From an uncultured Algibacter sp. (GTDB taxonomy: Bacteria > Bacteroidota > Bacteroidia > Flavobacteriales > Flavobacteriaceae): a stretch of DNA of 64,000 bases. A model generated the notes under the pieces. The model was not told the origin of the DNA, ran no database searches, and saw only the letters and a program-made list of their open reading frames with translations. The stretch lies in assembly GCF_947495925.1 (NCBI RefSeq), contig NZ_CANMAU010000006.1:129001-193000 (forward strand), in the 5' to 3' direction. The translations under genes were made by a program, and so were the position numbers. The stretch's first letter is position 1. Every line of letters begins with the position of its first letter. This document shows positions 3,911 through 8,543 of this stretch, piece by piece.

Positions 3911-4444
3911 TTATTCTATTTTAACTTTTCTTGGAGGTTCCATAATTTCTCCACAATTAGGGCAACTTCGTTTGTCTTTATCGTTGTAATATTTATCAAA
4001 TATTTTCGACATGTCTGTTTCAATATTCTCTAAAGTAAAATCTTCTTCATATAATTTAGTTACGCAATTTTCGCAGAACCAAAGCAATGCATCACGCATA
4101 CCTTCTGGTCTTTTGTATTCTATCACCAATCCAACTGTGTTAGCACCGCGCTGAGGAGAATGTGGTACTTTTGGAGGTAATAAATAAATATCACCTTCTT
4201 TTATATGTACATTTTTTGGAGTACCCTTATCAATTATTTTTAAAACAATATCTCCTTCAACCTGATAAAAAAATTCGGGTGTTTCGTTATAATGATAATC
4301 CTTTCTATTGTTAGGGCCTCCAACCACCATCACAATAAAATCGCCGTCTTTCCAAACCACTTTATTTCCAACAGGAGGTTTTAATAAATGCCTGTTTTCT
4401 TCAATCCAAGCTTTAAAATTTATGGGAGACGTTAAATGACTCAT
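3911..4444 (-). CDS. nbaC: 3-hydroxyanthranilate 3,4-dioxygenase
   Basis: This 177-residue cupin has the catalytic iron ligands expected from bacterial HAO (His51, Glu57, His95) and substrate residues Arg47, Arg99 and Glu109. It also has a second, rubredoxin-like iron site: Cys124-x2-Cys127 and Cys161-x2-Cys164. It opens the ring of 3-hydroxyanthranilate with O2 to give 2-amino-3-carboxymuconate semialdehyde, the ACMSD substrate. The second iron site marks the bacterial and fungal form. It lies between a structured RNA element upstream and two inverted repeats downstream, so its expression could be set apart from the rest of the operon. Confidence 0.96.
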   Translation of the reverse strand: MSHLTSPINFKAWIEENRHLLKPPVGNKVVWKDGDFIVMVVGGPNNRKDYHYNETPEFFYQVEGDIVLKIIDKGTPKNVHIKEGDIYLLPPKVPHSPQRGANTVGLVIEYKRPEGMRDALLWFCENCVTKLYEEDFTLENIETDMSKIFDKYYNDKDKRSCPNCGEIMEPPRKVKIE

Positions 4445-4455
4445 GTTTTAATGTT

Positions 4456-4522
4456 TTGGGCGTACCCCTTTCGGGTCGGGCTTTACGGGCTACATGGTAG
4501 CTGGCTGCAATCCCTCACGCAG
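4456..4522 (-). ncRNA. Candidate structured RNA resembling the Flavo-1 motif
   Basis: This is a GC-rich island in an otherwise AT-rich 150-bp spacer. Read on the minus strand it runs from GAGGGATTGCAG through a hairpin GCTAC-CAT-GTAGC, then AGCCCGACCC-GAAA-GGGG, to TACGCCC, ending 11 bases before the dioxygenase start. The order GGGATxGCAG ... AGCCCGACCC ... CGCCC matches my memory of the Flavo-1 RNA motif, a conserved element of unknown function in Flavobacteria. It could be a 5' leader element of nbaC or a separate RNA. The family assignment is from memory and is not verified. Confidence 0.55.
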
Positions 4523-4594
4523 TTTACGTTTCTAAAATTAAGTAAAAACTATAAAAGAAAAGCATTCATATCTTATTCTTTCGTTCTATTTTGA

Positions 4595-5377
4595 TCATAA
4601 GCACTTCGTTCTACCGCCATCAACAGGAATACTGGTTCCGTTAACATAAGCGGCAGATTCGCTCGCTAAAAACACCATTACATTGGCAAGTTCTTCTGGG
4701 GTAGCAAAGCGTTTTATAGGGGTGTAATCTTTCATGATTTGTGTCATTTCCTCAATAGTAGTTTCTTCAAAATCAGCTTTTATTTTTATTATTTCTGTTA
4801 GACGTTCTGTTGCTGTAAATCCAGGTAAAACGTTATTAACAGTAATTCCAAATTGAGCCAATTCCAATGATAGGGTCTTACTCCAATTACCAACAGCACC
4901 TCTAATGGTATTGCTTACACCCAAGCCTTCAAGTGGTTCCTTAACTGATGTAGAAACAATATTAATAATTCTTCCAAAACCAACTTCCTTCATAAAAGGT
5001 GCAGTAGCCTGTGCTAATAGGTGGTTACATTTTAAATGTTGCGTAAATGCGTTTTCAAATTCAGACAATGAGGCGTTCAAAATATTACCTGGTCTTGGTC
5101 CTCCAGTATTGTTAACCAAAATATGAAAGCCATGTTCTTTTTCTATAAACTTAATGACTTGCTCATATAGCTCCCTTGGGTTAGAAAAATCAGCAACAAT
5201 ATAGTTATGGTTTCTATGCTGAGGTAATTCTGCTAGCACTGCTTTTAGTTTTTCTCTGTTTCTAGCTACAAGGGTAACATTTACACCTTCTGCAGCCAGT
5301 GCTAAAGCAGTAGCTTTACCAATACCTTGAGTGCTTCCGCATACCAAGGCGTTTTTATTATTGAGTTTTAAATCCAT
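4595..5377 (-). CDS. SDR family oxidoreductase with atypical active site
   Basis: The 260-residue Rossmann protein has the cofactor motif CGSTQGIG (about residues 13-20), the NNTGG motif at 89-93 and a PGFTATE loop. The catalytic Ser is present (Ser142), but the YxxxK pair is replaced: the aligned stretch reads SNTIR, with Ser155 at the Tyr position and Arg159 at the Lys position. The fold and cofactor site are intact, so it may be a non-classical reductase or use other residues. It is separated by 2 bp from the GNAT gene inside the kynurenine operon. A role on a kynurenine-pathway intermediate is inferred from position only. Confidence 0.88.
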   Translation of the reverse strand: MDLKLNNKNALVCGSTQGIGKATALALAAEGVNVTLVARNREKLKAVLAELPQHRNHNYIVADFSNPRELYEQVIKFIEKEHGFHILVNNTGGPRPGNILNASLSEFENAFTQHLKCNHLLAQATAPFMKEVGFGRIINIVSTSVKEPLEGLGVSNTIRGAVGNWSKTLSLELAQFGITVNNVLPGFTATERLTEIIKIKADFEETTIEEMTQIMKDYTPIKRFATPEELANVMVFLASESAAYVNGTSIPVDGGRTKCL

Positions 5378-5379
5378 AT

Positions 5380-5820
5380 TTATTCATATATTTTTTTTGC
5401 TCTGGGACTTAGCCTTTCCATGAGCTTTTCTGGGCTTTTAATACCTGTAAATCCAAATTTAGTATAAAGAGTATGCGCGTCTTTAGTTGCTAGCATCCAC
5501 TTGTCAACGGTTTTTAAATCAGGAGCATTAAGTATATGGTCAATAAGCAATTTGGAGTAACCCTTACCTTGTTCACTTTCTATAACAAATACATCTAATA
5601 GGTATGCAAAAAACACTTTATCGGTCATGACTCGTGCATAAGCTATTTGTTGATTATTTTTAAACAGACCAAAGTTAATGGTGTTTTTCGATGCTTTTTT
5701 CTGTTCTTTAAAGGTTCTCGATTCTCCCCAATACGAATTTTTAACAAACTCATATATGAGAGGTAAATCCATATCATTAAAATTTGACGACAAATAAATA
5801 CCTTTAGTTATTTCAGTCAT
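5380..5820 (-). CDS. GNAT family N-acetyltransferase
   Basis: The 146-residue protein has the GNAT core, with strand 4 (LDVFVIES) leading into the acetyl-CoA pyrophosphate loop EQGKGYSKLL, and a C-terminal YTKFGF segment. GNAT enzymes move the acetyl group of acetyl-CoA to an amine. It lies 61 bp after kmo and 2 bp before the SDR gene, so it is inside the kynurenine operon. An amine of that pathway is a reasonable but unproven substrate. Confidence 0.85.
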   Translation of the reverse strand: MTEITKGIYLSSNFNDMDLPLIYEFVKNSYWGESRTFKEQKKASKNTINFGLFKNNQQIAYARVMTDKVFFAYLLDVFVIESEQGKGYSKLLIDHILNAPDLKTVDKWMLATKDAHTLYTKFGFTGIKSPEKLMERLSPRAKKIYE

Positions 5821-5881: not shown

Positions 5882-7279
5882 CTATTTTAAACCTGCAATT
5901 CTATCATCTTCAAGAATAGCTTCAGTTTCGAGTTTTATCTTTTTTAAGGTAAGTTTTAAATCATCGTTTAAATTTAAAAATCCATCAGTCAATAGGTTTA
6001 AAATAGCTTTATCTTGAGCTCGTCCCTTTAGCATAGCTTCCTTATATCCCATGTTTTCATTAAATGTAACCATGGAATATTTTGATGCGTATTCATTTGG
6101 AAATGCTTCCTCTAAAGCCATTTCTAATTTACGTTTTTCTTTGAATATAGGATTGGCCACATGGTCTTTCATTTCATGAAAATTATCAATAGCTAAATCG
6201 GCAATGGCATCGGTATCTTTTTTTCTACCCTCTTCGTAGGTTTTAAATACAGTGTCCCAGTGTTCAAGATTTTTATCTAAAACTTTATCGAACTCTACAA
6301 CATCTTCAAATGACGCATTCATACCTTGCCCATAAAATGGAACAATGGCATGTGCCGCATCCCCCATTAACAGTGTATTTCCTTTATAATGCCAAGGTGA
6401 GCATTTTATAGTGCCTAATGGAGCTGTAGGGTTTTTAAAAAAATCATCTAAAAGATTTGGCATTAAGGCCAAAGCATCGGGAAATTCTTTTTGAAAAAAT
6501 TCCAATACTATATTTTCATCATTAAGATTGTTGAAATTGTACTGGCCCCCGTCATAACTTAAAAATAGGGTTACTGTAAAACTTCCACCTAAGTTGGGTA
6601 GTGCAATGAGCATAAAATTGCCACGAGGCCATATATGAAGAGCTTTTTTTTGAAGCCTAAAATCATTGTTTTCTTTAGGAAGAATACTTAATTCTTTGTA
6701 GCCATGTGTTAAATAGTTTTGTGAAAAACTGAACAAGAATTTTTTACCCAAATAGTAACTTTTTCGCATTGCAGAACCTGCGCCGTCAGTAGCTATAATA
6801 ATATCTGCATCTTCAACAAATTCGGTTTTAGTTTTATAATCCTTAAATAGTGCTGTGGTTTTTTCAAAATCAACAGATTTACATTTTTTGTTGAAATATA
6901 TGTTGATGTTCTTGTGTTTTTCAGCTTCATTTAGAAGTAACGAGTTTAAGTCGCCACGTGAAATTGAATTTATATATTCATGAGGACGACCGCTATAGTT
7001 TGATTGAAATGTATTGCCATGTGAGTCATGAATCATACGTCCATGCATGGGGATACAGAGTGGTTTTATTTGGTCTTCTAGTCCAACAAGTTTTATAGCC
7101 TTATAACCACGATTGGAGAATGCTAAGTTTATAGAACGTCCGGCACTGATATCAACTTTGCGTAAATCAGGTCGCATTTCGTAAACAGTTACATTATAGC
7201 CTCTTTGACCTAATCTTAAAGCTAAGAGACTCCCGCAAAGGCCTGCTCCAATAATAAGTATGTTTTGTTTATTATTCAT
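5882..7279 (-). CDS. kmo: Kynurenine 3-monooxygenase
   Basis: The 465-residue FAD monooxygenase starts with the dinucleotide-binding motif IIGAGLCGSLLALRLG. It has the second FAD motif GDAAHAIVPFYGQGMN near residue 305 and the KMO-type segment DISAGRSINLAFSNRG. It hydroxylates L-kynurenine to 3-hydroxykynurenine with NADPH and O2. Eukaryotic KMO is anchored in the mitochondrial membrane by its C-terminus; this protein ends in a charged segment with no obvious anchor. Its start overlaps the end of kynU by 8 bp, so the two are coupled. Confidence 0.96.
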   Translation of the reverse strand: MNNKQNILIIGAGLCGSLLALRLGQRGYNVTVYEMRPDLRKVDISAGRSINLAFSNRGYKAIKLVGLEDQIKPLCIPMHGRMIHDSHGNTFQSNYSGRPHEYINSISRGDLNSLLLNEAEKHKNINIYFNKKCKSVDFEKTTALFKDYKTKTEFVEDADIIIATDGAGSAMRKSYYLGKKFLFSFSQNYLTHGYKELSILPKENNDFRLQKKALHIWPRGNFMLIALPNLGGSFTVTLFLSYDGGQYNFNNLNDENIVLEFFQKEFPDALALMPNLLDDFFKNPTAPLGTIKCSPWHYKGNTLLMGDAAHAIVPFYGQGMNASFEDVVEFDKVLDKNLEHWDTVFKTYEEGRKKDTDAIADLAIDNFHEMKDHVANPIFKEKRKLEMALEEAFPNEYASKYSMVTFNENMGYKEAMLKGRAQDKAILNLLTDGFLNLNDDLKLTLKKIKLETEAILEDDRIAGLK

Positions 7280-8543
7280 TTAAAATGACTTTCAGTTTTT
7301 CAACAAGACGATAAACATCTTCAAAAGAGTTGTACAAGGGCACGGGGGCACAACGTATAACATTAGGTTCTCTCCAGTCGCTAATTACTCCCTCATTAAT
7401 TAGTCTGTCATGTAACGTTTTATTGGCATTTTTAACTTGTATAGATAGTTGGCATCCACGCTCATTGACATTACTAGGGGTAATTATTCTTATTGTGTCT
7501 TCCCCTAGTTCTCTAAGTAAAAATTCTAAATATCCTGTTAGCTTCTTTGACTTGCTTAATAATTGGTTCATTCCAATTTCATTAAACATGTCTAGTGATG
7601 CTTTTATGGCAGCCATAGATAGAATAGGGGGATTGCTTAATTGCCAACCTTCTGCACCTTCCAATTGATCAAATTCATCGCGCATGTTAAATCTTGTTTG
7701 TTTATTGTGACTCCACCAGCCCGTAAAACGATTTAAATTTTTACTATATGCATGACGCTCATGAACAAAGCAACCACCTAAACTTCCTGGACCGGCGTTT
7801 AAGTATTTGTAAGTGCACCATACTGCGAAATCGGCATCTGAGTTGTGAAGGTTTAATGCAACATTACCTGCGCCGTGAGCACAATCGAACCCCACCAAGC
7901 AACCTTGTTTGTGCCCAAGACTTGTTATACGTTTTAAATCAAAAAACTGTCCTGTATAATAATTAACGCCGCCTACCATGATAAGGGCTATTTCTTGTCC
8001 TTGTTCTTCAAGAATAGTTTTTAAATCCTCATAACGTAATAACTCTTCACCTTTTCTTGGTTCCCATAAAACGACTCCTTCTCTATCATCAAAACCATGA
8101 TGGCGAAGTTGAGATTCTACAGCGTATTTATCAGAAGGAAAAGCATCACTTTCTATTAATATTTTATAACGTGTTTTTGTTGGCTTATAAAACGAAACCA
8201 TCATGAAGTGAAGGTTTGCCGTAAGGGTATTCATAACAACAACTTCAATAGGTTTTGCTCCCACGATTTTAGCCATATTCTCGGTTAAAAATTCATGGTA
8301 AGGTAACCAAGGTGTTTTTCCTTGTGTATGACCTTCAACACCTAAATTTGCCCAATCTTCTAATTCTTGATTTATATAAGATTTTGTGCATTTGGGTTGT
8401 AACCCTAACGAATTGCCAGTCATGTAAATCCATTCATTACCACCGTTGTCTTTGGGTATATGAAATTGGTTTCTATAAGACTTTAGTACATCTTTTTTGT
8501 CTTGTTCTAAAGCGTAATTAATCCCTAATTTATAATCAGACAA
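7272..8543 (-). CDS. kynU: Kynureninase
   Basis: The 423-residue fold-type I PLP enzyme has the Schiff-base Lys246 in WCTYKYLNAGPG and the cofactor-binding Asp220 and His223 in FDCAHG. The kynureninase block GNSLGLQP lies near residue 45. It cleaves 3-hydroxykynurenine to 3-hydroxyanthranilate and alanine. The start is TTG (TTG TCT GAT); no in-frame ATG lies upstream before the promoter box. It is the first gene of the operon kynU-kmo-GNAT-SDR-nbaC-ACMSD-OMT. No tryptophan dioxygenase or formamidase is adjacent, so kynurenine must come from genes elsewhere or from outside. Confidence 0.96.
   Translation of the reverse strand: MSDYKLGINYALEQDKKDVLKSYRNQFHIPKDNGGNEWIYMTGNSLGLQPKCTKSYINQELEDWANLGVEGHTQGKTPWLPYHEFLTENMAKIVGAKPIEVVVMNTLTANLHFMMVSFYKPTKTRYKILIESDAFPSDKYAVESQLRHHGFDDREGVVLWEPRKGEELLRYEDLKTILEEQGQEIALIMVGGVNYYTGQFFDLKRITSLGHKQGCLVGFDCAHGAGNVALNLHNSDADFAVWCTYKYLNAGPGSLGGCFVHERHAYSKNLNRFTGWWSHNKQTRFNMRDEFDQLEGAEGWQLSNPPILSMAAIKASLDMFNEIGMNQLLSKSKKLTGYLEFLLRELGEDTIRIITPSNVNERGCQLSIQVKNANKTLHDRLINEGVISDWREPNVIRCAPVPLYNSFEDVYRLVEKLKVILNE

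Follow-up and report, generated by a model that had tools for sequence, protein, structure and literature searches.

In the genome of an uncultured Algibacter sp., a structured element lies immediately before the gene encoding 3-hydroxyanthranilate 3,4-dioxygenase (nbaC), raising the question of whether it serves that gene or has come to lie there for other reasons. The window analyzed is a 64,000-nucleotide stretch of contig NZ_CANMAU010000006.1, and the features given below as x..y are all on the minus strand.

The nbaC locus and the folded element

The gene run begins with kynU, encoding kynureninase (7272..8543; TIGR01814, 458 bits, above cut-off), and leads through an SDR-family oxidoreductase gene (4595..5377; no single model above cut-off among the 25 shown) to nbaC (3911..4444, ATG at 4444; TIGR03037 at 249 bits and NF009763 at 268.6 bits, both above cut-off). 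The spacer between the SDR gene and nbaC (4445-4594, 150 nt) is the widest gap from kynU to nbaC, in agreement with an earlier note on this DNA that had placed the element in the only large gap of the operon. Among the best 80 of the 573 nbaC loci found, 77 have an SDR relative upstream on the same strand, with SDR-nbaC spacers of 24 to 2224 nt. The kynurenine gene run of the window also holds a GNAT-like protein (5380-5820), which acetyltransferase models match weakly, below cut-off.

The structured element, of extended Flavo-1 type, spans 62 nt (4459..4520), and its 3' end lies 14 nt before the nbaC ATG, not the 11 bases given previously. The extended-element model (R1), whose training set includes the window copy, scores it at 58.3 bits, and a second model (R2), derived from 24 of the 32 own-genome copies and from no nbaC copy, matches 4459-4520 alone in the 64-kb window (40 bits, E 6e-10) and shows P1, the P2 base and P3. 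As the R2 copies were collected with R1, the independence of the two models extends to their sequences, but not to the way in which the copies were obtained.

P1, the outer stem, would close a junction from which two hairpins extend, the long and variable P2 and the short P3. P1 pairs GCGUG (4516..4520) with UACGC (4460..4464), ending in a G-U pair, as indicated by the pair counts of alignment A1 described below and by the R1 match; the P2 base pairs GGG-A-UU (4509..4514) with AA-G-CCC (4478..4483), likewise on A1 pair counts. Both hairpins already read from the sequence are present: the apical GCUAC-CAU-GUAGC hairpin (GCTAC-CAT-GTAGC in DNA; 4489..4501) and P3, CCC-GAAA-GGG (4466..4475), with a GNRA tetraloop and a covarying stem. 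The window copy has a G-U wobble as its fifth P1 pair, leaves the sixth open and carries a C-C mismatch at the inner pair 17-86. A similar apex occurs at nbaC in loci L045, L050, L054, L055 and L062, and is absent from the other own-genome copies compared.

Folded alone, the window element does not stand out (z -0.33), 75 of 200 shuffles folding equally well. Folding of a single copy is thus uninformative, and the structural case rests on comparison. Alignment A1 comprises 24 nbaC-leader copies, namely the window and 23 of the 28 leaders found by regular expression, five decayed, very long or nested copies being omitted (L044, L048, L051, L054 and L081). Standard pairs occupy 94.7% of A1 cells against 82.6% in shuffled alignments, and compensatory changes, proposed beforehand as a check on homologous spacers, are abundant (38 double-change cells versus 7.5 shuffled), 14 of the 38 falling at the inner P2 pairs 16-87 and 17-86. 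The covariation score of 0.323, compared to 0.100 for shuffled alignments, is reached by 0 of 500 shuffles, and slid partners score at most 0.081. The structure scored on A1 was drawn up after the alignment had been viewed, with RNAalifold and a second set of copies (A2) serving as controls: unaided, RNAalifold predicts 15 of the 16 same pairs on A1, missing only the last of P1.

Individual pairs vary in a compensatory manner. Pair 5-159 of P1 is UA in 17 rows, GC in 6 and GU in 1, the GU being that of the window, and the fifth P1 pair accordingly alternates between U-A, G-C and G-U; the sixth is open in 12 of the 24 rows and gapped in one more. The first pair of the P2 base (7-97) is AU in 18 rows, GC in 5 and other in 1, and the fifth (12-92) is UA in 19, AU in 3 and other in 2. 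The P3 pairs, 100-102 with 155-157, covary, several relatives substituting other complementary letters in the stem. Most of the invariant letters belong to P1, the base of P2 and the beginning of P3, and the interior is hypervariable. A2 comprises 24 of the 32 own-genome copies, the remainder being the copy at nbaC, two copies lacking a locus and five that are long, offset or divergent; RNAalifold again recovers P1, the P2 base and P3 from these copies, which had been found with R1. In a set of 93 copies, double-change cells number 131 versus 28.5 shuffled, in an alignment fitted to the model. Covariation thus supports a predicted three-way junction of P1, P2 and P3.

Relationship to the Rfam family Flavo-1

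Flavo-1 was named in 2010 by Weinberg et al. (PMC2864571), in a table that marks it 'y' as an RNA and 'n' both as a cis-regulator and as a switch. Rfam classes it (RF01705) as 'Gene; sRNA', and a 2021 transcriptome study gained no real clue to its function. The RF01705 model does not match the window copy at the gathering score, at E<=10 within 4300-4700 or at E<=1 over the window, and the cut-off of 42 bits is not reached by this copy. The earlier note had called the element Flavo-1-like and had itself named a missing covariance-model match as evidence to the contrary; its proposal fails on the window copy as such, yet holds by homology through orthologous leaders. When 12 nbaC leaders drawn from the 27 with an element were given to Rfam, 7 passed the RF01705 cut-off (L039, L053, L064, L066, L074, L079 and L101) and 5 had no match (L040, L050, L062, L088 and L096), indicating that the nbaC site holds Flavo-1 elements. 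The leaders that pass have an apex of the UCC(U)n/(A)nGA type and the 5 without a match have other apices; the P2 of the window likewise lacks the apical UCC(U)n/(A)nGA stem of the Rfam consensus, bearing the short GCUAC-CAU-GUAGC hairpin instead. The missing match goes with this differing apical half of P2, and the window copy is a Flavo-1 relative of a subtype that the Rfam model does not recognize.

The same genome holds 24 RF01705 matches at E<=0.001, 16 of them above the cut-off, and several lower-scoring ones have the same termini as the window copy: GCGTTAGGGATTG on the 5' side and, on the 3' side, AAAGCCCGACCC and ACGCCC. A genome search for GGGATNGNAG..AAAGCCCGACC gives 12 matches, one of them in the window, against 0 for the reversed control. 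The two models overlap in part: 9 of the 32 extended-model copies coincide with an RF01705 match above the cut-off, 17 with any RF01705 match and 15 with none listed, and 7 of the 16 above-cut-off RF01705 matches overlap no extended-model copy at E<=1e-3.

Sites in nbaC leaders, in the genome and across the family

A strict regular expression, applied to the gene strand only, picks out 28 spacers with the element, at a distance of 14-18 nt from the nbaC start codon. Searching both strands, R1 finds it in 27 of 80 nbaC leaders, 23 of which belong to its training set, and R2 likewise in 27 of 80, all in sense orientation with either model; it is on these both-strand searches, not on the regular expression, that the sense claim at nbaC rests. 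Further matches in L104 and L113 lie elsewhere than in the leader. The other 53 leaders have no R1 match, element-free loci having short spacers, other sequence or another repeat.

On an SDR+nbaC tree of 76 rows, presence of the element changes 15 times and subtype 9 times; the tree is a quick one, with 21 of 73 inner branches starred, and subtype labels were assigned by eye. Among close relatives, interiors differ between alike flanks. Upstream bases agree at 35 of 40 positions for L079/L075 and 32 of 40 for L074/L075 in Psychroserpens, and at 32 of 40 for L054/L065 in Aestuariibaculum; for L040/L050 only 16 of 40 are alike in an ungapped count.

Two further observations concern these spacers. 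A second, unrelated repeat-like element is seen by eye in the same spacer of 12 of the 80 loci (L036, L042, L046, L047, L056, L068, L097, L104, L105, L106, L112 and L113), in several as CTCAAAT-ACCCG-ATTTGAG followed by CTCC/GGAG and, ahead of the ATG, AGGGG; an inverted partner is often found upstream. Rfam returns nothing above gathering score on these 12 loci, the sub-threshold matches near the spacers including His_leader in L056 (38.4 bits versus 49) and snoR30 in L046 (24.5 versus 60). In addition, in L054:2376-2486 and L081:2343-2486, from two genera, another apparent hairpin-like insert interrupts the element following GGATT, and the two share a similar TTCGTGAA stretch.

Beyond nbaC, the element is dispersed. 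R1 finds at least 32 copies in this genome at E<=1e-3 and 42 at E<=1, the count being a lower bound because 150 of 1978 candidates were scored, and it has matches in at least 106 of 149 family genomes, where 30 candidates per genome were scored as opposed to 150 in the own-genome and sister-genome searches. With gene neighbors called by a simple ORF caller, co-directional genes flank 11 sense and 11 antisense copies of 30 in this genome, convergent genes 6 and divergent genes 2. The 130 family copies, which are the top scorers of the 149 genomes and among which nbaC copies are favored by training, comprise 35 sense, 50 antisense, 18 convergent and 15 divergent copies and 12 before tmRNA; 11 of the 130 precede nbaC, and fairer figures for the two sites are 27/80 (nbaC) and 11/18 (tmRNA). 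Once the nbaC and tmRNA copies are set aside, antisense copies outnumber sense copies by 50 to 24 (an automatic pass recognized 8 family nbaC copies and 3 more were found later, bringing 27 sense copies down to 24), and this surplus indicates that placement is not a matter of simple indifference. Antisense copies have their 3' end 0-15 nt beyond the stop codon of the preceding gene in 8 of the 11 own cases and in 33 of the 50 from the family. Standard pairs make up 97.6-98.1% in every context (15 pairs, the sixth P1 pair omitted), suggesting a constraint independent of the neighbor's transcript, in a context test limited by the choice of copies by model score, which favors intact ones.

The neighboring genes are many and unrelated, in both orientations. 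The earlier note had taken the position in a metabolic operon as a functional clue and had proposed looking at the genes that follow other copies; in view of these neighbors, and with 53 of 80 nbaC leaders lacking an R1 match, the reading of the position as a clue to function is not supported.

The tmRNA locus is a recurrent site. The element stands in sense in the tmRNA leader of 11 of the 18 family genomes with a tmRNA locus, including this genome and its sister (G001), at gaps of 25-182 nt from the tmRNA and with a weakest match of 25 bits (L218); the R1 training set contains no tmRNA copy. At tmRNA loci of other families it is found in 0 of 12, one of the 12 being a partial tmRNA match. 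The own tmRNA-leader copy lies outside the 32 (E 0.004 in the genome search, 58.5 bits in the locus search). The element also stands in sense upstream of leuB, both in the present genome and in G071, and antisense at pheS (TIGR00468), where 4 of 30 loci have it, including a weak match at 23.4 bits; in L392 a fifth, weaker match falls within pheS itself. In the sister genome 3 copies were found at E<=1e-3 versus 32 here: it shows no R1 match at nbaC (L037) or pheS (L377), where decayed relics are seen by eye, and its tmRNA-leader copy has the top score among the family matches listed (80.4 bits).

In F. psychrophilum, a -7 box TAnnTTTG is described at -12 to -5 (PMC9723704). The window has a candidate -7 box, TAATTTTA (4533..4540), a variant of TAnnTTTG with similar boxes at nbaC in relatives, and if this box is used, transcription would start close to position 4528, some 8 nt ahead of P1. 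Searching for TAnnTTT[AG], a loose form of TAnnTTTG, within 40 nt upstream, we found a box at 16 of 21 nbaC/tmRNA copies versus 23 of 139 others (p 8e-8, the copies not being independent and three family nbaC copies remaining among the others). An earlier cut gave 11 of 26 sense and 2 of 34 antisense copies, one of the latter 2 being a tmRNA leader. At box-bearing nbaC and tmRNA sites, the element would form the start of the transcript.

Explanations for a dispersed element

From the homology, structure, copy number, sites and patchy presence established by computation, we favor, at a probability of roughly 0.62, the interpretation that the element is a REP-like structured repeat of extended Flavo-1 type that serves, or is tolerated, as the 5' leader of nbaC, rather than a metabolite switch. 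At nbaC it would lie just downstream of the promoter and make up most of the 5' leader, placing a closed stem at the beginning of the mRNA and leaving 14 nt between the structure and the start codon. Its likeliest local effect would be a constitutive one on the 5' end, through mRNA stability or an open start region, not ligand sensing. Genome-wide, it behaves like a REP-type repeat, keeping its structure regardless of neighboring gene or orientation, while at a fixed site relatives have different interiors, presumably exchanged between copies. No mobility was observed, in that neither a target duplication nor a clean insertion boundary was seen. A neutral repeat would not require the sense-only orientation found at nbaC and tmRNA, though single insertions may be the origin of the copies there.

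A dedicated cis-regulator or riboswitch of nbaC, sensing a tryptophan, kynurenine or NAD metabolite, would agree with the uniform sense orientation of all 27 R1 leader matches on a search of both strands, the 14-18 nt spacing of the regex-found copies from the ATG, the strong covariation and the promoter-like boxes upstream. We nonetheless regard it as very unlikely, given that the hypervariable interior offers no conserved ligand-binding core, that the element also occurs at tmRNA, leuB, pheS (in antisense) and many unrelated genes with no consistent gene context, and that most nbaC leaders (53 of 80) have no R1 match and the sister's copy looks decayed; a dispersed repeat with about 30 copies in the genome is probably no nbaC-specific switch. 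The Rfam type 'Gene; sRNA' points to a gene for a trans-acting small RNA, as does an excess of G-U over A-C on the element strand (25:10 in 189 distinct copies, p 0.008; 17:9 in 93 copies) that does not flip in antisense copies (sense 13:6 versus antisense 8:2, p 0.67). Model scoring, however, favors G-U over A-C and the copies are not independent, the ratio falls to 14:6 (p 0.058) once the three pairs that vary most are excluded, and a promoter-like box is uncommon outside nbaC and tmRNA (23/139); we judge such a gene improbable. A ratio that does not flip with orientation brings no decision between RNA and single-stranded DNA. At the other extreme, a chance pair of GC-rich hairpins might be suspected from a single copy that folds no better than its shuffles and is missed by RF01705, but this candidate was rejected, with next to no probability left to it, on the comparative data: covariation, the RNAalifold pairs, the R2 match in the window and the R2 matches in 27 of 80 leaders.

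Mobilization as a REP element by a RAYT/Y1 transposase would fit a short, structured, multicopy element that is intergenic in both orientations. There is precedent in a mostly Bacteroidetes TnpA-REP subclass, whose genes are described as flanked by atypical structures with copies elsewhere (PMC6006769), and Y1_Tnp, which has a match in 58 of the 149 family genomes, is found in element-rich genomes including G033, G036, G044, G045 and G125. Against this, Y1_Tnp has no match in the present genome (a draft of 39 contigs, 99.98% complete) or in eight genomes with 21-30 R1 matches each (G049, G068, G070, G071, G091, G093, G124 and G140). Furthermore, R1 has no match in 30 Y1_Tnp loci of relatives (92 kb; best match per genome) or in 35 regions around weaker Y1_Tnp matches (86 kb), some with YIHNNP-type proteins, each covered for about 1-1.5 kb on either side, and we consider this origin unlikely. 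Alternatively, a trans-acting factor, either a protein or an exchange process on the folded strand, might keep the copies intact genome-wide, with the tmRNA-leader copy as functional anchor; its loss, perhaps in the sister, would let dispersed copies decay together while the tmRNA-leader copy stays. This proposal we consider doubtful; if it were true, RNase P cutting of pre-tmRNA would release the element as a free RNA of about 80 nt.

The preferred reading, a REP-like repeat used or tolerated as a leader, can be set against what is in print. The strand indifference of Flavo-1 has been reported in F. psychrophilum, where its matches lie indistinctly sense or antisense to transcribed regions (PMC9723704). 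New here are the extension of the Flavo-1 architecture by P1 and P3, the detection of variants that the Rfam model misses, and a site pattern in which an element dispersed in both orientations is yet a recurrent sense leader of tmRNA and nbaC; neither the extended structure nor the tmRNA and nbaC sites were found described in the literature consulted on Flavo-1, RF01705, RAYT/REP, flavobacterial repeats and tmRNA leaders. A sister species with far fewer copies provides a direct comparison and makes the motif testable.

Loci L341-L345, L348 and L361 encode TnpA-REP-like proteins (MSRNYKF..., with YIHNNP or close variants), the element not being nearby. An attC-like site was considered for the GTTA/TAAC ends and dropped, the ends pointing the wrong way for such a site.

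Like REP and REPIN sequences, the element is multicopy, structured, intergenic and present in both orientations. Unlike those associated with RAYTs, it forms a predicted three-way junction instead of one palindrome and has no RAYT link in the regions searched. A table in PMC12306157 names Flavobacterium genomes. The element also resembles the CGTC-tagged palindromes, which are reported in Bacteroidetes among others and are not tied to a transposase gene; compared by description only, each of these is one stem of 8-9 bp whose loop measures 4-5 nt, with a CCA-like tail (PMC3733652). With Flavo-1 itself (RF01705) the element shares the P2 core GAUUGNAG...AAAGC; in contrast to that family, several P2 interiors, including that of the window, are unlike the Rfam consensus, and the extended type gains P1 and P3 from sequence that is unpaired in that consensus.
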